A DNA stretch of 64,000 nucleotides, from contig NZ_JALKBA010000015.1 of NCBI RefSeq assembly GCF_023015805.1, positions 1 to 64,000 on the forward strand. Direction: 5' to 3'. How positions within the stretch are numbered: the stretch's first letter is position 1; every line of letters starts with the position of its first letter. Of the stretch, positions 47,596-55,502 are shown one piece after another. A program made the position numbers and the translations under genes. This DNA comes from Cellulophaga sp. F20128. GTDB taxonomy: Bacteria; Bacteroidota; Bacteroidia; Flavobacteriales; Flavobacteriaceae. Under the pieces are notes generated by a model. The model had not been told where the DNA came from. It did no database searches and saw only the letters and a program-made list of their open reading frames with translations.

Positions 47596-48657
47596 ATGGC
47601 AGGAAACACATTTGGGAATCTTTTTAAGTTGGTAACTTTTGGAGAATCACATGGCGTAGCAATAGGGGGAGTTTTAGATGGTTGTCCGTCTGGAATTGAA
47701 TTGGATTTTGAGGCTATACAAACAGATTTAAATCGAAGAAAACCTGGTCAATCTAAGATCGTTACTCAGCGTAAGGAACCAGATGAAGTAGAATTCTACT
47801 CCGGTTTATTTGAAGGGAAAACAACAGGAACACCTATTGGTTTTGCCATTCACAATACCAATCAAAAATCACATGATTATTCACATATTAAAGATTCATA
47901 CCGTCCTTCACATGCCGATTATGTATACGATAAAAAGTATGGCTTTCGAGATTATAGGGGAGGCGGACGTAGTTCTGCACGTGAAACCGCAAGTAGGGTA
48001 GTCGCTGGTGCTATAGCCAAACAGTTTTTAAAAGGGATAAAAATAAATGCGTATGTTTCGCAGGTTGGTGATTTAAAACTGACAAAAAGCTACAAAGAAT
48101 TAAATTTAGAAGAAACTGAATTAAATCCTGTCCGTTGTCCTGATCAAGAGATGGCGGCTCAGATGGAAGACTATATCAAAGAAATTAAAAAAGAAGGCGA
48201 TACTATTGGTGGAGTAATTAGCTGTGTTTTACAAAACGTTCCAATTGGCTTGGGTGAACCAGCTTTTGATAAATTACATGCCGAATTGGGTAAAGCAATG
48301 TTGAGTATTAATGCCGTAAAAGGATTTGAATACGGAAGTGGTTTTAATGGAGTTACTATGAAAGGTAGTGCGCATAACGATCAATTTAATAGCGACGGTA
48401 GCACCAAAACAAATCACAGTGGTGGTATTCAAGGAGGTATTAGCAATGGAATGGATATTTATTTTAACATAGCCTTTAAACCGGTTGCTACTATAATACA
48501 GCCTTATGAAACTATAGATAAGGAAGGTAATATGGTAAAAACACAAGGCAAAGGGCGCCATGATCCTTGCGTTGTACCTAGGGCTGTGCCAATTGTAGAA
48601 GCTATGGCTGCATTGGTTTTAGCAGATTATACCTTACTGAATAATTCAATGCGATAA
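47596..48657 (+). CDS. aroC: Chorismate synthase
   Basis: AroC converts EPSP to chorismate with reduced FMN; 353 aa, normal length. All signatures are present: '[20 protein letters not shown]', '[19 protein letters not shown]', '[24 protein letters not shown]' is seen in shorter form as '[14 protein letters not shown]', and the C-terminal '[20 protein letters not shown]'. It supplies chorismate for aromatic amino acids and menaquinone (menB is 31 kb away). Confidence 0.97.
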
Positions 48658-48747
48658 TTTTTTAATAGCGCTTATATAATTATTGCTTCCATTTTATTTG
48701 GAGTTTAGCTTGGCAAAATAGTATATTACTCACCAAAATATACAAGA

Positions 48748-50076
48748 ATGAAGAAGTTAGAGCTGCATTGGCAGATTATGATAGGGATGGTTTTAGGACT
48801 ACTCTTTGGTTTTGGAATGGCACAAGTTGTTTGGGGAAAACAATTTATTCTAGATTGGATAGGGCCATTTGGAAGCATATTTGTCAACCTTTTAAAGTTA
48901 ATTGCTGTCCCATTAATATTAGCATCTTTGATAAAAGGGATATCGGACTTAAAGGATATCTCTAAATTTAGAAATATAGGATTACGAACTATAGGGATCT
49001 ATATATTTACAACTGTCATTGCTATTACCATTGGCTTAGTTTTGGTGAATGTCATTAAACCTGGCGAAGGTATTTCTGAAGAAACCATTGCAAAACTTTC
49101 AGAAACCTACGCTAACGATAGTAATGTTCAAGGAAAAATAGCAGAGGCAACCAATCAAAAAGAAGGAGGCCCATTGCGGTTTTTAGTAGATATGGTTCCA
49201 GACAATGCCATTGCTGCATTGGGAAATAATAAGTTAATGCTTCAGGTTATTTTCTTTACTATTTTTATGGGAATTTCTATGTTGCTCGTTGGAGAAAAAC
49301 GTTCTAAGCCTTTAAAAAAGTTTTTTGACTCTTTAAATGATGTCGTCCTCAAGATGGTAGATTTAATTATGCTAGCGGCACCAGTTGCTGTTTTTGCCTT
49401 GTTAAGTCAGGTTGTGGTCACAGCCGATGACCCTGAAATATTACAAAAATTATTATCCTATGCCGGGGTTGTTGTTTTAGGGTTAGTACTTATGATTGTA
49501 TTTTACTGTACTGTGGTTTCTATTTATACAAAAAAGAACCCTATTTGGTTCTTAAAGCAAATGAGTCCCGCACAATTACTCGCTTTTTCTACAAGTTCTA
49601 GTGCTGCGACCTTGCCAGTTACAATGGAACGGGTAGAAGAGCATATTGGGGTCGATAAAGAAGTATCTAGTTTTGTTTTGCCTGTGGGAGCTACCATAAA
49701 TATGGATGGTACCAGTTTATACCAGGCCGTTGCTGCCGTGTTTATCATGCAAGTACTTTGGCCTGAAGGATTAACATTTAGCAATCAATTATACATTGTA
49801 TTAACAGCTTTATTAGCATCCATTGGATCAGCAGCTGTTCCTGGTGCAGGGATGGTTATGCTTGTTATTGTTTTGGAAGCTATCGGTTTTCCACCAGACT
49901 TATACCCAGTTGCCTTAGCATTGATTTTTGCGGTAGATAGGCCTCTAGATATGTGTAGAACGGTTGTAAACGTAACAGGAGATGCTACCGTTGCAATGGT
50001 TGTGGCCAAATCAGTAGACAAATTACATGATCCTAAACCTAAAAATTGGGATGATAACTATGATAAAGTAAAATAA
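48748..50076 (+). CDS. Dicarboxylate/amino-acid:cation symporter (DAACS)
   Basis: A 442-aa secondary transporter of the GltP/DctA family with eight helices and two re-entrant loops. HP1 carries the serine-rich 'LAFSTSSSAATLPVTMERV', the Na/H site is 'VGATINMDGTSLYQAVAAVF', and HP2/TM8 has 'GAAAVPGAGMVM' type sequence and 'DRPLDMCRTVVNVTGDATVA' whose Asp/Arg contact substrate. It likely imports glutamate, aspartate or C4-dicarboxylates. It precedes the ATP-grasp gene by only 13 bases, so it is the probable feeder for the operon. Confidence 0.92.
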   Translation: MKKLELHWQIMIGMVLGLLFGFGMAQVVWGKQFILDWIGPFGSIFVNLLKLIAVPLILASLIKGISDLKDISKFRNIGLRTIGIYIFTTVIAITIGLVLVNVIKPGEGISEETIAKLSETYANDSNVQGKIAEATNQKEGGPLRFLVDMVPDNAIAALGNNKLMLQVIFFTIFMGISMLLVGEKRSKPLKKFFDSLNDVVLKMVDLIMLAAPVAVFALLSQVVVTADDPEILQKLLSYAGVVVLGLVLMIVFYCTVVSIYTKKNPIWFLKQMSPAQLLAFSTSSSAATLPVTMERVEEHIGVDKEVSSFVLPVGATINMDGTSLYQAVAAVFIMQVLWPEGLTFSNQLYIVLTALLASIGSAAVPGAGMVMLVIVLEAIGFPPDLYPVALALIFAVDRPLDMCRTVVNVTGDATVAMVVAKSVDKLHDPKPKNWDDNYDKVK

Positions 50077-50089
50077 AAATTACTAGAAG

Positions 50090-51121
50090 ATGAATATTTG
50101 TTTTTTAATGTACCCTTGGGAAGAAATTGATCCAGAAAATGATACCAGTTTGGCTCTAATTCATGAGTGTATACGAAGGGGACATGGCGTTGGTTTATGT
50201 ACACCTGCTAATTTGACTATTCGCAATAGTGTTACCAATGCATTTTGTACGGTTCTAAATAGAATGGAAAAAATTCCGGTCAATCTGAAAACTTTTTATA
50301 AGCAAGTAAAACTACGTGAAGAAATGTTGCCTTTGGCTGGGTTCGACGTGATTTTTATGCGTGGAAATCCACCCTTAGACCCTATAATGCTTAACTTTTT
50401 AGATTCAGTTAAGGATGATGTTTTTATTGTTAACTCCATTCAAGGCTTACGTGAGGCTAATAATAAATTATATACGGCTGCCTTTGGGGATTCTCATAGT
50501 AATATTATACCGGCAACCCATGTTTCTAAAAACAAGAATTACCTCATCAAACAAATTCGGGAATCTGAGGCCGATAAAATGATTTTAAAACCATTAAATG
50601 GTTTTGGAGGCTCTGGGGTAATATTGATAGAGAAATCTGCCATGTCTAATATAAAATCATTGTTAGATTTTTACATCACAAATTCTGACGGTAGTTCTAA
50701 TTATGTAATCCTTCAAGATTATATAGAAGGAGCAGATAAAGGTGATATTCGTATTTTATTATTAAATGGAGAGCCTATTGGGGCTATGCGAAGAATTCCA
50801 GGAACAGAAGACCATCGATCTAATGTTTCAGCAGGAGGTACAATTGCAAAACATACCTTAAGTAAAGAAGAAAAAGCCTTGTGCAAACAGATAGGTCCTA
50901 AATTGGTTAATGACGGACTCTATTTTGTGGGTATTGACGTCATTGGTGGTAAATTGGTTGAAGTCAATGTAATGTCGCCCGGTGGGATAACCTATATGAA
51001 CAAGGTATATAAAACAAAACTTCAAAAACAAGTGATCGATTTTGTAGAAAGTAGAGTTTTAGACAAGTTGCAAGCTTTTGATAGAAGATCTAGATTAAGA
51101 AGCGAAGTAGACAATGCTTAA
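50090..51121 (+). CDS. Glutathione-synthetase-like ATP-grasp ligase
   Basis: A 343-aa ATP-grasp enzyme with glutathione-synthetase-like architecture. The N-terminal domain (about 1-120) resembles GshB ('FLMYPWEEIDPENDTSLALI', 'DVIFMRGNPPLDPIM'). ATP binding: 'KMILKPLNGFGGSGVILIE' (Lys167, glycine loop), 'ILQDYIEGADKGDIRILLLNG', 'VGIDVIGGKLVEVNVMSPGG' with the metal-binding Glu/Asn. It should join a carboxylate to an amine with ATP. No gamma-glutamylcysteine synthetase is nearby, so classic glutathione synthesis is not implied. It is the first enzyme of a three-gene set and overlaps the next by 8 bases. Confidence 0.85.
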   Translation: MNICFLMYPWEEIDPENDTSLALIHECIRRGHGVGLCTPANLTIRNSVTNAFCTVLNRMEKIPVNLKTFYKQVKLREEMLPLAGFDVIFMRGNPPLDPIMLNFLDSVKDDVFIVNSIQGLREANNKLYTAAFGDSHSNIIPATHVSKNKNYLIKQIRESEADKMILKPLNGFGGSGVILIEKSAMSNIKSLLDFYITNSDGSSNYVILQDYIEGADKGDIRILLLNGEPIGAMRRIPGTEDHRSNVSAGGTIAKHTLSKEEKALCKQIGPKLVNDGLYFVGIDVIGGKLVEVNVMSPGGITYMNKVYKTKLQKQVIDFVESRVLDKLQAFDRRSRLRSEVDNA

Positions 51122-51941
51122 ATTATCTATTACAGATATCATTCACAATATTGAGTCTGGTCTTAAATTTGAAGCAGTTGCTGAAGACTATTCCTTTACT
51201 TTAAAGATTGATGAATATGTTCCTTTTGTTTGTGCGGCCGTGCATGATGGACATCAGTTTCGGAAATCGCTTTGGGATAATTGCCTGCATACTGCTTATG
51301 AACGTTGGTATGAAGAAGACCCTTGTACCAAACAAATGATACAGAATCAGCCCATAGTTCTGGCAGGCTGCGATAGTAGGTTTGAATACGATTTAAATAG
51401 AGCACCTGATGCAGCCATTTACACGGATGCTTGGGGGAAAAAGCTTTGGAAAAACGAGCTTTCAGCAATTGAAAAAAGAATTAGTTTACAAAAACACCAG
51501 TCATTTTATAAGGTAACTGCGGCGCTACTGACTAAGTTGGAAGTTTTACATCCCAAAGTCTTAGTTTTTGATATGCACAGTTACAATTGGAAACGGTGGG
51601 ATCGGGAAGTGCCTACTTGGAATATGGGAACCAAAAATATTGACACGGAGAGATTTGGAGTTTTTACCGAAGCATGGCGTAAAAAATTAGAGCAACTACA
51701 ATTGCCTAACGGCTTAAAATCTACATCTAAGCTTAATGATACTTTTCAAGGAAATGGTTACTTTTTAAAGTTTATCACCCAAAATTTCACTAATTCACTC
51801 GTTTTTGCCACAGAAATGGCAAAAATTTATTGTGACGAAGAATCTGGAGTAATATTCCCAGAAGTTGTACAAGCAGTGGCAACGGCATTAAAAAACATAA
51901 TACCTTTGCAAGTAACTGAATTTAGTAATAGTAACGTATAA
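51114..51941 (+). CDS. N-formylglutamate amidohydrolase-like enzyme
   Basis: A 275-aa zinc hydrolase of the N-formylglutamate amidohydrolase (HutG-type) family. Visible motifs are 'PFVCAAVHDGHQFR' (metal-binding His/Asp), 'LAGCDSRFEYDLNRAPDAAI' (substrate Arg/Asp-Arg pair) and 'VLVFDMHSYNWKR' (late Asp-His). The classic role is hydrolysis of N-formyl-L-glutamate, but in this family it often sits beside ATP-grasp genes, suggesting a different N-acyl or isopeptide substrate. Overlaps with both neighbours (8 bases and 1 base) show translational coupling. Confidence 0.87.
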   Translation: MLKLSITDIIHNIESGLKFEAVAEDYSFTLKIDEYVPFVCAAVHDGHQFRKSLWDNCLHTAYERWYEEDPCTKQMIQNQPIVLAGCDSRFEYDLNRAPDAAIYTDAWGKKLWKNELSAIEKRISLQKHQSFYKVTAALLTKLEVLHPKVLVFDMHSYNWKRWDREVPTWNMGTKNIDTERFGVFTEAWRKKLEQLQLPNGLKSTSKLNDTFQGNGYFLKFITQNFTNSLVFATEMAKIYCDEESGVIFPEVVQAVATALKNIIPLQVTEFSNSNV

Positions 51942-53110
51942 TGCAAGAATCACTCAAAGTTGAGTTAAAAAATGAATTTGCCGATCTTTTTGAGATCGAT
52001 GCCAATTTAAACCGGTTAGTAAAACGAATAGAATTACTTAGCTATGTTAATCCCCAGAATTTAGAAAAGGAGAAGCAGCGCTTTTTTGCGTCTAAATTTA
52101 CTGAGGTTCCTGAATTTAAATACCCCAAGTTAAAATTTGATCCTTATAAATTACACCGGTTATTTTTTTCACAACGTTTAGAACGTATAGAAGATGATGC
52201 TATTCGCAAACTTTACCAGGATATCATATACTACTATTCTAATATGATACAGTGTATTGAAACCATTGGCAAGGAAAATAAATTCTACTACAACTCCTTA
52301 AAAATTTACGGTACACCAACAGAGAAAGATGTACAGAACGCAGAGTTTATATTGCATTTTAAGAATGAAGAATTAACTCCAGACCAAGATAAGAAATACA
52401 CGGCTCAGCAAGCAGTTTCTTATTTTGAAGAATTTGGCAAGCAGTATAATTTTCCTATAAATATAAAATTATCTACCAATATTGCAGCAGATGCCATGGT
52501 AAGCAATGCTACTAAAAGTTTGTTCATTAAAAAGAATGCCAAGTTTAGCGACAATCAGTTATTGACCTTGGCACATCACGAAATAGGCGTGCATTTGGTA
52601 ACTACCTATAATGGCGGCTTACAACCTTTGCAAATTTTTTCCAATGGATTTCCTAAGAATGTAGAAACTCAAGAGGGATTGGCTGTTTTTAGCGAATATA
52701 TGAGTGGTGCATTAACTTTAAAAAGATTAAAGGAGTTGTCTTATAGAGTGTTAGCCTCTGATAGTTTGATAAAAGGGTATAATTTTGCAGATACGTTCGA
52801 TTTAATTCACAATCAATACAAATTGAATAAGAACGATGCCTTTTCCATAACATTACGAGCACATCGAGGGGGCGGATTTACTAAAGATAGGCTATACCTT
52901 AGTGGTTTGCGTAAAATATTTAAGCGTTACCAAAATGAAAAATCTATGGATATTTTACTCAGAGGTAAGGTTACCTTAGAATATGAAAATGCCATTACTA
53001 ACTTGGAAAGTATGGGCCTATCTGAAAAAATAACGCATACCAATATTGCCTACAATCAATGTTTAAACAGCAATGAAACACTAGACTTTATATTGAATAA
53101 TTTAAAGTAA
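51941..53110 (+). CDS. DUF1704 QEGLA-motif metallopeptidase (MATCAP-like)
   Basis: A 389-aa protein of the DUF1704 family, annotated elsewhere as 'flavohaemoglobin expression-modulating QEGLA motif protein'. The zinc site is an HExxxH motif, 'LAHHEIGVHLVT' (His213, Glu214, His218), spaced one residue wider than the usual HExxH. The eponymous 'ETQEGLAVFSEYMSG' (Gln244-Ala248) follows and probably gives another ligand. Eukaryotic relatives (MATCAP1/KIAA0895L) are tyrosine carboxypeptidases acting on tubulin tails. The N-terminal 110 residues are helical. Its stop-start overlap TAATG with the upstream gene fixes the operon. What it cleaves is unknown. Confidence 0.85.
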   Translation: MQESLKVELKNEFADLFEIDANLNRLVKRIELLSYVNPQNLEKEKQRFFASKFTEVPEFKYPKLKFDPYKLHRLFFSQRLERIEDDAIRKLYQDIIYYYSNMIQCIETIGKENKFYYNSLKIYGTPTEKDVQNAEFILHFKNEELTPDQDKKYTAQQAVSYFEEFGKQYNFPINIKLSTNIAADAMVSNATKSLFIKKNAKFSDNQLLTLAHHEIGVHLVTTYNGGLQPLQIFSNGFPKNVETQEGLAVFSEYMSGALTLKRLKELSYRVLASDSLIKGYNFADTFDLIHNQYKLNKNDAFSITLRAHRGGGFTKDRLYLSGLRKIFKRYQNEKSMDILLRGKVTLEYENAITNLESMGLSEKITHTNIAYNQCLNSNETLDFILNNLK

Positions 53111-53126
53111 GCTCAAGTTAGCGTCA

Positions 53127-53165
53127 CAAAAAAACTTCCTTTGCTCACAAAAAGAAAAGGAGGTC
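53127..53165. other. Weak hairpin after the DUF1704 gene
   Basis: ACTTCCTTT and AAAGGAGGT can pair with one G-U around a 13-base loop. It may help end the operon transcript, but the T-run is poor. Confidence 0.3.
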
Positions 53166-53189
53166 TTGTTAATTGTAGTGTTTTGGTCA

Positions 53190-53972
53190 CTAATAGTCCG
53201 AATATTCGGTAGGATAAAGCAATAGAATATCTGCCTTATTCATATTGTTTTTGTATTTTTTTTCAGCAGATAATTTTTTCCATACAGGTGAATTCCGAAA
53301 GGTATCCCACTTGGCATCTCGTTGTTCCATATTGGTATGGGTGGTCATATACATCAGGTTTGGCATATGATCTCCTGAAATCACTTTGGCATAGAACACG
53401 GCATTAAACCCTAAATCATTAAATAGTTTAATTTCTCCCCCAGCATTAAACATAGCTACCTTATTCAAATAGGTCTTTTCCGTTGGAGACTCATAACTGC
53501 GGAGTTCATATACTCGGTCGGCTCTTGGGCCTTCTACCGGACTTGGCAACAATTTTGGCATTCCGGTAAAGGCTCGTAAAATAGTGCTGGTAAAGCGTTC
53601 GTAAGGCGGATTTTTGAAGGATGCGTTAATATAATCACTTCCTGCCAATTGGTAGTCTTTATCTTCTGATAAGCGTTTATCTAACCCTTCAAATTGCGAA
53701 AGGGAAGAAAAAGGAATCAAAACATAGATTTTATTTGCTAATGTAAACTTGTTTGGTCTTAGTTTGAAGACACCCACTTGGGTAATTCCTGTTTTATTAA
53801 GTGCAGGTAAAAGCGCTTCTTTTAGGTACAGGTCCATCGCACTTTCCTGTTTTTCATTTTTGATGGTATAGGTTTTTAGTTGGTAGTACTCTTCCTCTTG
53901 TGCGTTAAGGGTTGTGCAAGTGAAGCTTGCCAAAAGTAAAAAGACAAAAAGGGTAGGGAACAGTTTTTTCAT
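53190..53972 (-). CDS. NIPSNAP-family secreted protein
   Basis: A 260-aa protein with a signal peptide ('VFLLLASFTCTTLNAQ', with a possible lipobox) and two NIPSNAP-type ferredoxin-like repeats: 'YYQLKTYTIKNEKQESAMDLYLKEALLPAL' and 'VYELRSYESPTEKTYLNKVAMF'. The final 'RDAKWDTFRNSPVWKKL' is the typical NIPSNAP tail. The function of the secreted flavobacterial versions is unknown. It is a single gene, divergent from the alpha-galactosidase. Confidence 0.85.
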   Translation of the reverse strand: MKKLFPTLFVFLLLASFTCTTLNAQEEEYYQLKTYTIKNEKQESAMDLYLKEALLPALNKTGITQVGVFKLRPNKFTLANKIYVLIPFSSLSQFEGLDKRLSEDKDYQLAGSDYINASFKNPPYERFTSTILRAFTGMPKLLPSPVEGPRADRVYELRSYESPTEKTYLNKVAMFNAGGEIKLFNDLGFNAVFYAKVISGDHMPNLMYMTTHTNMEQRDAKWDTFRNSPVWKKLSAEKKYKNNMNKADILLLYPTEYSDY

Positions 53973-54209
53973 AGTATGTAGTATGTATTCATTACGAACC
54001 TAAATAAATTAGCCCAAATAGCCTATTAATACTCCTAATTTTCACAAATCCTGTAAATTTATGGTTTTTTCACCGCTTCGTTCTTGATTGTTATTTCTAG
54101 TCTGAACTGCTATCTCCCAACAAAAGCAACATTTGTTTTAATTTTAATATCCTATACCGTAAATTGCTACATTTACAATAAATAACAAATACTTATACCC
54201 ACTTTTTTA

Positions 54210-55502
54210 ATGACTTCATTACATAACAAAATTAATATTTTACGATCACTTCCTTTTGTGTTTCTCAGTCTTTCTATGAGCTGTAAAGTGGTTACGAACA
54301 CCAATGCATTACCAGAAACTGTAAATTTAATAAAGCTGGATACAGCTACTCCTATCTATAAAACACCTATTATGGGATGGGCAAGTTGGAATAATTATAG
54401 GGTGAATATCAATGAGTCTATCATTAAATCGCAAGCAGATGCTATGGTAATATCAGGATTAAAGGACGTGGGGTATTCCTATATCAATATTGACGATGGT
54501 TTTTTTGGAGGAAGAGATGCAAGGGGTAATATTGTAGCACATCAAGATAGATTCCCTAACGGAATGAAAACCATGGCTAGTTATATCCATTCAAAAGGAT
54601 TAAAAGCTGGTATTTATTCAGATGCAGGTAGTAATACATGTGCTGCCTATTGGGATAAAGACACCATTGGTGTTGGAATGGGATTGTATGGCTTTGACAA
54701 GCGCGATTTAACTAGATATCTAAAGGAATGGGACTATGATTTTATAAAAGTAGATTGGTGTGGTGGCGAATGGTTGGGATTAGATGAAGAAGTGCGGTAT
54801 ACAGAAATTGGGAAAATTATAAAGGAAATAAAACCAAATGCAGGTTACAATATATGTCGTTGGGAATTCCCTGGAAAATGGGTGACACAAGTGGCCGATT
54901 CTTGGCGGATTTCTGGAGATATAAATAATACTTTTCAATCTATAATGCATATCATTGATCTCAATGCAGATTTATGGATGTACAGTTCAGAGGGGCATTA
55001 TAATGATATGGACATGCTGCAGGTGGGCAGAGGTATGAGTTATGAAGAAGATAAAGCACATTTTTCCATGTGGAGTATGATGCAGTCGCCGCTTTTGCTG
55101 GGGAATGATTTAACCAAAATGAGTGCAGAAACTATTGGTATTGTAACCAATGAAGATGTTATAGCATTAAACCAAAGCCCCTTTTCATACCAAGCCAGAC
55201 GGTTGGTAGATTATGGCGCTTTAGAGGTTTGGGCCAAACCTTTGGTTTCTACAATGAGTGGGGAAGTAGCCGTTGCCTTATTAAACAGGTCAGATACGGA
55301 CACTATTATTCCTTTTGAATTAAAGGCAGTAGGGATTGATGCTTCTAAAACCTATATTTATAAGGATTTATGGTCTAAAAAAACACAGGGTACTACCTTA
55401 AATGAAAAGATAAAAATTGAGGTACCATCACATGGGGTAGTGGTCTTAAAAATCACAGGAACATCCTTGCCGTATAATGTGTTTCAGTATAAGGATAAAT
55501 AG
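54210..55502 (+). CDS. GH27 alpha-galactosidase-like glycoside hydrolase, lipoprotein
   Basis: A 430-aa clan-D glycosidase. A leader ending 'LSMSCKVV' suggests a lipoprotein. The barrel begins 'PIMGWASWNNYRVNINESII', with 'SYINIDDGFFGGRDARG'. The nucleophile is the Asp in 'YDFIKVDWCGGEW' and the acid/base the Asp in 'WRISGDINN'. A C-terminal beta domain ('VAVALLNRSDTDTIIPFEL') completes the fold. It releases terminal alpha-galactose (or alpha-N-acetylgalactosamine) from polysaccharide. No SusCD pair or polysaccharide cluster is next to it, so its glycan is unknown. Confidence 0.9.
   Translation: MTSLHNKINILRSLPFVFLSLSMSCKVVTNTNALPETVNLIKLDTATPIYKTPIMGWASWNNYRVNINESIIKSQADAMVISGLKDVGYSYINIDDGFFGGRDARGNIVAHQDRFPNGMKTMASYIHSKGLKAGIYSDAGSNTCAAYWDKDTIGVGMGLYGFDKRDLTRYLKEWDYDFIKVDWCGGEWLGLDEEVRYTEIGKIIKEIKPNAGYNICRWEFPGKWVTQVADSWRISGDINNTFQSIMHIIDLNADLWMYSSEGHYNDMDMLQVGRGMSYEEDKAHFSMWSMMQSPLLLGNDLTKMSAETIGIVTNEDVIALNQSPFSYQARRLVDYGALEVWAKPLVSTMSGEVAVALLNRSDTDTIIPFELKAVGIDASKTYIYKDLWSKKTQGTTLNEKIKIEVPSHGVVVLKITGTSLPYNVFQYKDK

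Follow-up and report, generated by a model that had tools for sequence, protein, structure and literature searches.

Four closely spaced genes in the flavobacterium Cellulophaga sp. F20128 raise the question of why a bond-forming ligase is encoded in one row with two hydrolases and a transporter, and what such a set might do. The window analysed here is the whole stretch of 64,000 nucleotides from position 1 to 64,000 of contig NZ_JALKBA010000015.1 (RefSeq assembly GCF_023015805.1). All four genes lie on its + strand: a symporter of the SDF family (48748-50076, an open reading frame of 442 residues), an ATP-grasp carboxylate-amine ligase of the PRK12458 subfamily (50090-51121, 343 residues, a type A ligase as defined below), an amidohydrolase of the FGase family with an N-formylglutamate amidohydrolase fold (51114-51941, 275 residues) and a predicted metallo-carboxypeptidase of the MATCAP family with HExxxH and QEGLA motifs (51941-53110, 389 residues). 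The gene order, the 13-base gap between symporter and ligase and the overlaps of 8 bases (ligase and FGase) and 1 base (FGase and MATCAP) agree to the base with a preliminary description of the locus, and this spacing suggests that the four genes are transcribed as one unit. We refer to the set as the cassette.

Co-inheritance of the three enzyme genes

In a sample of 392 genomes of Bacteroidota, the phylum of the window, MATCAP (PF08014) was found in 21 genomes and a ligase of the cassette type in 19, all within those 21, and the ligase type was present in none of the 371 genomes without MATCAP. A ligase was assigned to the cassette type if it scored at least 396 bits against the PRK12458 profile (18 pass 408 bits and G002 is at 396.5). 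The best scores in genomes without MATCAP were 215 bits (G204, where the match is a true GshB according to TIGR01380) and 194 bits (G076), and the rest were at 103 or less. The co-occurrence of ligase and MATCAP corresponds to a Fisher p of about 2e-30 for genomes that are not mutually independent. In 19/19 genomes the two genes are neighbours with a few genes between them at most, and an FGase gene stands alongside both in 16. The MATCAP genomes without a cassette ligase are a flavobacterial one with neither ligase nor FGase (G398) and one with a divergent solo MATCAP (G196). Because of these co-occurrence counts a chance cluster was ruled out, and with it chance adjacency. The preliminary description had allowed for the three genes rarely occurring together, which is not the case, given that every ligase genome also has MATCAP.

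The flavobacterial loci were examined as the best 80 of 572 relatives. Ligase, FGase and MATCAP follow each other in this order at 71 of the 80 (70 with exactly one of each, and L092, where the FGase is split in two), L091 is truncated at the end of its contig, and eight have MATCAP with neither ligase nor FGase (L027, L043, L045, L049, L053, L054, L062 and L064). The distance from ligase to FGase is within 60 bases at 48 of the 71 loci and up to 1876 bases at the other 23, and a symporter gene lies within 6 kb at 64/80. The eight ligase-less loci are counted as ordered aroC, symporter, MATCAP, as is seen in the gene lists of the seven other than L053 (L043 has two symporters), and the best ligase-profile match in their genomes is at most 105 bits versus 525 and 513 bits in two comparison genomes. 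Three of the eight were placed in a MATCAP tree of 27 rows, where they need two separate label changes; ligase and FGase thus seem to have been lost jointly more than once.

Two versions of the cassette were distinguished. In type A the ligase and FGase accompany a short MATCAP of about 390 residues, or FGase and MATCAP are fused (L013, L104 and L112, as well as L105, which lacks the ligase). Type B has a long MATCAP (609-643 residues) and a second ligase type, usually together with an FGase. Both ligase types occur together in L014 and L015, and in the MATCAP tree type B (100/99) and the solo forms (100/100) are split from the remainder. An apparent fusion of ligase and MATCAP in G241, where one open reading frame overlapped both matches, was rejected, since the matches lie in different frames.

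The N-terminal parts of the long MATCAPs align with FGases (hhalign E 1.1e-5, probability 82, 167 columns), with control E-values of 0.17 for GshB, 0.3 for the symporter, 0.27 for aroC, 0.84 for the reversed FGase and 0.03 for the best of 60 column shuffles. The N-terminal stretch used in this comparison partly overlaps the MATCAP core, where it gives a core match of 31 columns (E 1.2e-6). The pattern HxG(H/T/S/R) is present in 11/12 FGases and (D/E)xHS(Y/F) in 10/12, a set that includes one FGase from another operon with neither pattern (L023) and one without the second (L162), and both are found in 0/12 of the long-MATCAP N-terminal parts. The long MATCAPs therefore seem to bear a degenerate, inactive-looking FGase-like domain. 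FGase and MATCAP would then be tied in three ways, as neighbours, by fusion and by a MATCAP with an inactive-looking FGase domain. At 3 of the 19 Bacteroidota loci (G053, G283 and G362) a gene resembling AstE/AspA adjoins the ligase in place of the FGase; the assignment is based on PF24827 in two of them and on BLASTP similarity in the third, and the absence of FGase applies to the locus only. New here are the degenerate FGase-like domain, the AspA/AstE-like gene where FGase is missing and the loci with symporter and MATCAP but neither ligase nor FGase.

Outside Bacteroidota, we examined nine of the 127 records of plasmids or chromids in which a MATCAP relative was found, and also pSymB of Sinorhizobium meliloti 1021. 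The module or its FGase-MATCAP fusion is present in six of the nine. Two Photobacterium records (L104 and L112) have the ligase followed by the fusion, Aminobacter and Shinella have annotated genes for FGase, a long MATCAP and the ligase, and the same three are found on S. meliloti pSymB, also in strain 1021. A general-stress promoter of the EcfG type upstream of the rhizobial cassettes was considered and rejected; the strict pattern occurs once in L106 and is absent from L107 and L108. In the Vibrionaceae a DUF413 gene stands directly before the cassette (L104:4592-4996 and L105:5687-6046), with a LysR-type gene pointing away; DUF413 was tested and LysR annotated in L105 only, and both were recognised by eye in L104.

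Altogether, co-inheritance, the FGase-MATCAP fusions and the joint absence of ligase and FGase strongly support the view, already taken in the preliminary description, that the three enzymes work together as a unit.

Protein families of the cassette

The ligase carries the two domains of prokaryotic glutathione synthetase (PF02951, 86 bits; PF02955, 182 bits), and its profile matches E. coli GshB (1gsa) nearly end to end (E 2.9e-65), followed by ligases of the RimK type at about 1e-20. It passes NF009110/PRK12458 (463.9 bits, cut-off 408) and narrowly passes the glutathione synthase model NF003573 (283.7 bits, cut-off 272), but falls below TIGR01380 for GshB (237.4 versus 299.05 bits) and below TIGR00768 for the RimK family (90.9 bits, cut-off 143.4). 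Three other cassette ligases likewise miss TIGR01380, which is passed by GshB of E. coli (464 bits), S. meliloti (414 bits) and G204 (408 bits). For S. meliloti GshB (L183) the source is a record of 3.7 Mb which, although titled pSymB, was taken as the chromosome. With NF003573, the Photobacterium ligase of L104 passes (292 bits) and those of L180 (213) and type B L014 (218) fail. In a midpoint-rooted ligase tree of 36 rows, with long branches flagged, six GshB and two GCS2-associated rows make up the GshB clade (100/99), and all 26 cassette-type ligases lie outside it. The type B ligases group with the rhizobial ones (100/100), and the support for type A (63/25) and type B (50/32) as single groups is weak.

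Two gshA families were searched, PF04262 and PF04107 (GCS2). PF04262 was found in 0/19 cassette genomes and in 0/40 genomes searched, and PF04107 was missing from 13 of the 19 and present in six; in 14 well-known control genomes they were found in two and five, respectively. The window genome is among the six, and its single GCS2 gene sits in a separate operon. GCS2 occurred in 6/19 cassette genomes and in 14/21 others, but a Fisher value for GshA depletion was not used because the 21 comparison genomes were hand-picked. The miss of TIGR01380, the separate clade and the lack of both gshA families in 13/19 cassette genomes led us to reject an ordinary glutathione synthetase, the other case that the preliminary description had kept in view, notwithstanding the pass of NF003573; on these profile and tree comparisons such an identity is disfavoured. 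In public records the cassette ligase is named 'glutathione synthase' and MATCAP 'flavohemoglobin expression-modulating QEGLA motif protein', and both names are probably misleading. G204 and G076 share a distinct cluster (L157 and L158), in which a GshB, checked with TIGR01380 in L157, stands with a GCS2 ligase and a protein of roughly 1800 residues.

The FGase matches PF05013 (47.2 bits, cut-off 28.9) and has the motifs HDGH (residue 44) and DMHSYN (residue 153), of which all positions except the M are invariant in 26/26 rows. Its AlphaFold2 model (pLDDT 91.8) has the N-formylglutamate amidohydrolase 2q7s as top Foldseek match (TM score 0.69, E 2e-12) and 2odf as the second; weak matches include the metallo-carboxypeptidase 4a37 (TM score 0.36-0.40) and mouse aminoacylase 3 (E 0.02).

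The peptidase scores 357.8 bits with PF08014 (cut-off 27) and falls below the cut-off of the QEGLA model TIGR02421 (319.5 versus 338.65 bits), of which it is a relative rather than a member. The HEIGVH motif begins at residue 213 and is followed by QEGLA, from residue 244; H213, E214, H218, Q244 and E245 are invariant in 28/28 MATCAP rows, and HE...H is kept in 27/27 short, long, fused and solo forms examined. The metal site of MATCAP is described as HExxxH plus a third ligand in a later EG motif, and the eukaryotic MATCAP/TMCP enzymes as removing C-terminal Tyr and also Glu and polyglutamate (PMC10499314). The peptidase profile matches human MATCAP 7z5g (E 3.9e-15), which is also the top Foldseek match of the AlphaFold2 model (pLDDT 89.6; E 3.8e-8, TM score 0.56 by query and 0.65 by target, root-mean-square deviation 10.2), followed by M32 carboxypeptidases. 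The protein is thus predicted to be a C-terminal exopeptidase of the MATCAP family. Descent of human MATCAP from the solo subfamily was also considered; a single solo bacterial MATCAP gave no match in the PDB at E up to 1. A search of 50,697 phage records had one match at E up to 1e-3, a partial MATCAP relative with 27% identity in a record named Pseudomonas phage Y1 (OQ572403.1:63554-64498).

The symporter belongs to PF00375 SDF (414 bits), with an aspartate transporter as the nearest solved chain (E 3.4e-87). The motif DxxLDMxRxx(V/I)N is present in 67/67 symporter matches of the 80 loci (51 by pattern and 16 by eye), and its D, R and N presumably bind substrate as in GltPh. The protein scores too low for the curated models of GltP, DctA and SstT (GltP NF008440, 248.9 bits versus an equivalog cut-off of 638), so that it is filed in the SDF family only; an acidic amino acid or a dicarboxylate is its likely substrate.

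Possible reactions and alternative explanations

The reading that we tentatively prefer, at somewhat below an even chance, is that the cassette is a co-inherited module for making and unmaking an acidic peptide that is short and amide-linked and most likely contains glutamate. The ligase would activate a carboxylate with ATP and link it to an acidic amino acid, most likely glutamate, through the amino group of the latter. MATCAP would trim residues from the C-terminal end, FGase (perhaps an AspA/AstE-like enzyme in some lineages) would open an N-acyl or terminal amide and return the free amino acid, and the symporter would supply or recover glutamate or aspartate. The physiological role might be to shrink or re-store the glutamate pool under hypo-osmotic conditions. 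Gene order, protein families, catalytic motifs, co-inheritance, the fusions, the shared absence of ligase and FGase and the separation of the ligase subfamily from GshB are shown by the data, whereas we infer that the substrate is glutamate, that the acceptor is a small peptide and not a protein, and that the role is a hypo-osmotic one. A synthesis-and-removal cycle with a putative tag and acceptor, as proposed in the preliminary description, is kept as plausible. Its emphasis on tyrosine has a basis in the removal of C-terminal Tyr by MATCAP kin but is probably too narrow, and glutamate is the better guess because the eukaryotic enzymes also remove Glu and polyglutamate (PMC10499314).

The possible tie to hypo-osmotic adjustment comes from expression data. 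In Photobacterium damselae grown at 1% versus 3% NaCl, a gene named 'GshB' (RS17020) was up 38.4-fold, the 'QEGLA' gene RS17025 27.5-fold and RimK, which is encoded on the other chromosome (RS00405), 52.2-fold (PMC10308900). The neighbouring tag numbers, together with the gene order in other Photobacterium records, suggest that RS17020 and RS17025 are homologues of cassette genes. RimK is reported to synthesise poly-alpha-glutamate and the RimB protease to undo RimK tagging, and RloA to cleave polyglutamate, with the rlo operon, which includes the ATP-grasp RloC, affecting hypo-osmotic tolerance (PMC12239564). Compared with marine genomes, brackish ones more often have genes for enzymes that modify glutamate (PMC10219603). 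The terms DUF1704, QEGLA, MATCAP, peptidase and formylglutamate do not occur in the available part of an ATP-grasp paper (PMC4431377). No described bacterial role for the cassette was found in a search of the open literature, which does not prove that none exists. Iyer et al. (2009, Mol BioSyst) reportedly connected ATP-grasp peptide ligases to peptidases of several folds, and the present set may already be among those listed there.

A bolder version of the glutamyl-peptide proposal, which we regard as unlikely, casts the cassette as the bacterial equivalent of the eukaryotic tail-code pair. Free glutamate is the main counter-ion of K+, and a reversible glutamyl-peptide store would park glutamate as salinity falls and release it later. 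Such a store would be run by a GshB-type ligase and MATCAP, with an FGase partner that is fused, degenerate or replaced by an AspA/AstE-like gene. If a glutamyl peptide is indeed made, the cassette would represent a new ATP-grasp/metallopeptidase metabolite cycle for bacteria, would explain some of the Photobacterium genes that are strongly induced at low salt, and would give a bacterial setting to the MATCAP family, which in humans serves to trim the tails of tubulin.

Four other explanations were weighed and are given in declining order of probability. The ligase could extend the C-terminus of some cellular protein by glutamate (or tyrosine) residues that MATCAP would remove, by analogy with RimK/RimB, which tag ribosomal protein S6, and with TTLL/MATCAP, which act on tubulin. 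MATCAP relatives do work on protein tails (PMC10499314) and RimB does reverse RimK tagging (PMC12239564); however, the ligase is nearer to GshB, a small-molecule enzyme, than to RimK, the FGase or AspA/AstE partner points to small N-acyl amino acids, and no likely acceptor gene recurs in the neighbourhood gene lists, which leave out open reading frames under 100 residues, so that a protein tag is probably not the answer. Slightly less likely again is a cycle like that of N-acetylaspartylglutamate (NAAG) in the brain, in which the ligase would join an N-acyl-Asp or N-acyl-Glu to glutamate, MATCAP would serve as the glutamate carboxypeptidase and FGase or AspA as the deacylase. The families suit these three reaction types, a carrier of the Glu/Asp type is in the same row, and an AstE/AspA-like gene replaces FGase in 3/19 cassettes, but no acyltransferase was noted in the set, a literature search for bacterial work linking the terms gave nothing relevant, and the aminoacylase 3 match among the FGase folds that would fit this scheme is a weak one.

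An explanation by thiol chemistry, with the ligase making a glutathione-like low-molecular-weight thiol peptide that the two hydrolases recycle, appears improbable. It would agree with the GshB-type fold of the profile, with the NF003573 passes of the window and Photobacterium ligases, and with the rhodanese gene found at 17/80 loci and the DCC thiol-disulfide oxidoreductase gene within 6 kb at 53/80 (mostly on the opposite strand). Set against this are TIGR01380, missed by four cassette ligases and passed by three true GshBs, the separate clade, and the 13/19 cassette genomes without either gshA family. In addition, S. meliloti 1021 and 2011 both have a cassette ligase on pSymB (full-length in 1021), and gshB mutants (SMc00419 in 2011, and an earlier 1021 mutant as cited) are nevertheless described as glutathione-deficient, although expression of the pSymB ligase there is not established (PMC7063052). 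Least probable is plain scavenging, in which symporter and hydrolases would harvest acidic amino acids from peptides or N-acyl amino acids and the ligase would serve a different step. The retention of symporter and MATCAP at the eight ligase-less loci is what one would expect from scavenging, but the restriction of the ligase type to MATCAP genomes and the joint absence of ligase and FGase at those loci are not.

Several points also weigh against the proposed cycle of making and unmaking a glutamate-containing peptide. The substrate, product and acceptor of the cassette are unproven, and the hydrolases for the supposed bond are encoded in the same set as the ligase that would make it. Since 8/80 loci keep symporter and MATCAP without the ligase, MATCAP must be more than an eraser for the cassette ligase. 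At 17/80 loci a rhodanese gene separates the ligase from the FGase, a hint of sulfur chemistry, and the AspA/AstE-like gene of G283 (locus L159) is on the opposite strand. Outside the phylum, Vibrio sp. HDW18 (L105) has the FGase-MATCAP fusion without a neighbouring ligase, a divergent solo MATCAP is what three of the nine records contain (two from Pseudoalteromonas, one from Aeromonas), and Ensifer adhaerens has a cassette-type ligase (L188:3950-4996) with no MATCAP or FGase annotated within 9 kb. Rhizobia have the cassette though they are not marine, and the salt data are from one organism and one study, with RimK at a separate locus.

Surrounding genes and comparison with known systems

In the window the cassette is preceded by aroC (47596-48657, NCBIfam match) and followed by a gene for a NIPSNAP-family protein on the opposite strand (53190-53972). 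A consensus scan of 48400-54300 gave 21 promoter-like sites versus a shuffle mean of 22.0, and 8 terminator-like sites versus 3.8 in shuffles, four of them on the + strand inside the genes of the set. The rhodanese genes include L014:10316-11137, L017:5770-6609, L165:6802-7641 and L166:8638-9480; one rhodanese gene (L014) and one DCC gene were checked with Pfam. Ten of the 17 rhodanese loci add a small gene, and the copy in L017 resembles TerB below the cut-off.

The window genome has a single MATCAP, the one in the window, and several ligase-hydrolase pairs. An RLAN-type ATP-grasp protein, a GCS2 ligase and another FGase form a row without MATCAP (L023:104-3266, contig C27 near 50430). A RimK-like ligase is followed by an AstE/AspA-looking gene, labelled by eye (L022:1159-3004, C26), and a protease-like domain, also labelled by eye, is joined to RimK (L021:589-1980, C103).

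Among known systems, the eukaryotic TTL/TTLL ligases with MATCAP/TMCP peptidases share with the cassette a peptidase homologous to human 7z5g and a writer of the ATP-grasp type, the TTL fold being related to ATP-grasp. They differ in that the substrate there is tubulin and the cassette ligase is GshB-like. RimK/RimB is similar in that an ATP-grasp ligase is genetically paired with a protease that reverses its action (PMC12239564), and RimK rises at low salt in Photobacterium together with what appear to be cassette genes (PMC10308900). In contrast to RimK, the cassette ligase is of a different subfamily, its partners are MATCAP and FGase with no retropepsin in the row, and no link to S6 is apparent. 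The Rlo operon of Pseudomonas (the retropepsin RloA, RloB and RloC) likewise combines an ATP-grasp protein with a protease that cuts polyglutamate and has a role in hypo-osmotic tolerance, but RloA is a secreted aspartic protease, and no MATCAP, FGase or symporter is named for the operon in the extracts of that paper (PMC12239564). GshB as defined by TIGR01380 has the same two Pfam domains, aligns nearly end to end through 1gsa and shares NF003573 with the window ligase. The cassette ligase differs from it in scoring under TIGR01380, in forming a separate clade, in standing beside MATCAP in 19/19 genomes and in occurring mostly where the gshA families are absent.

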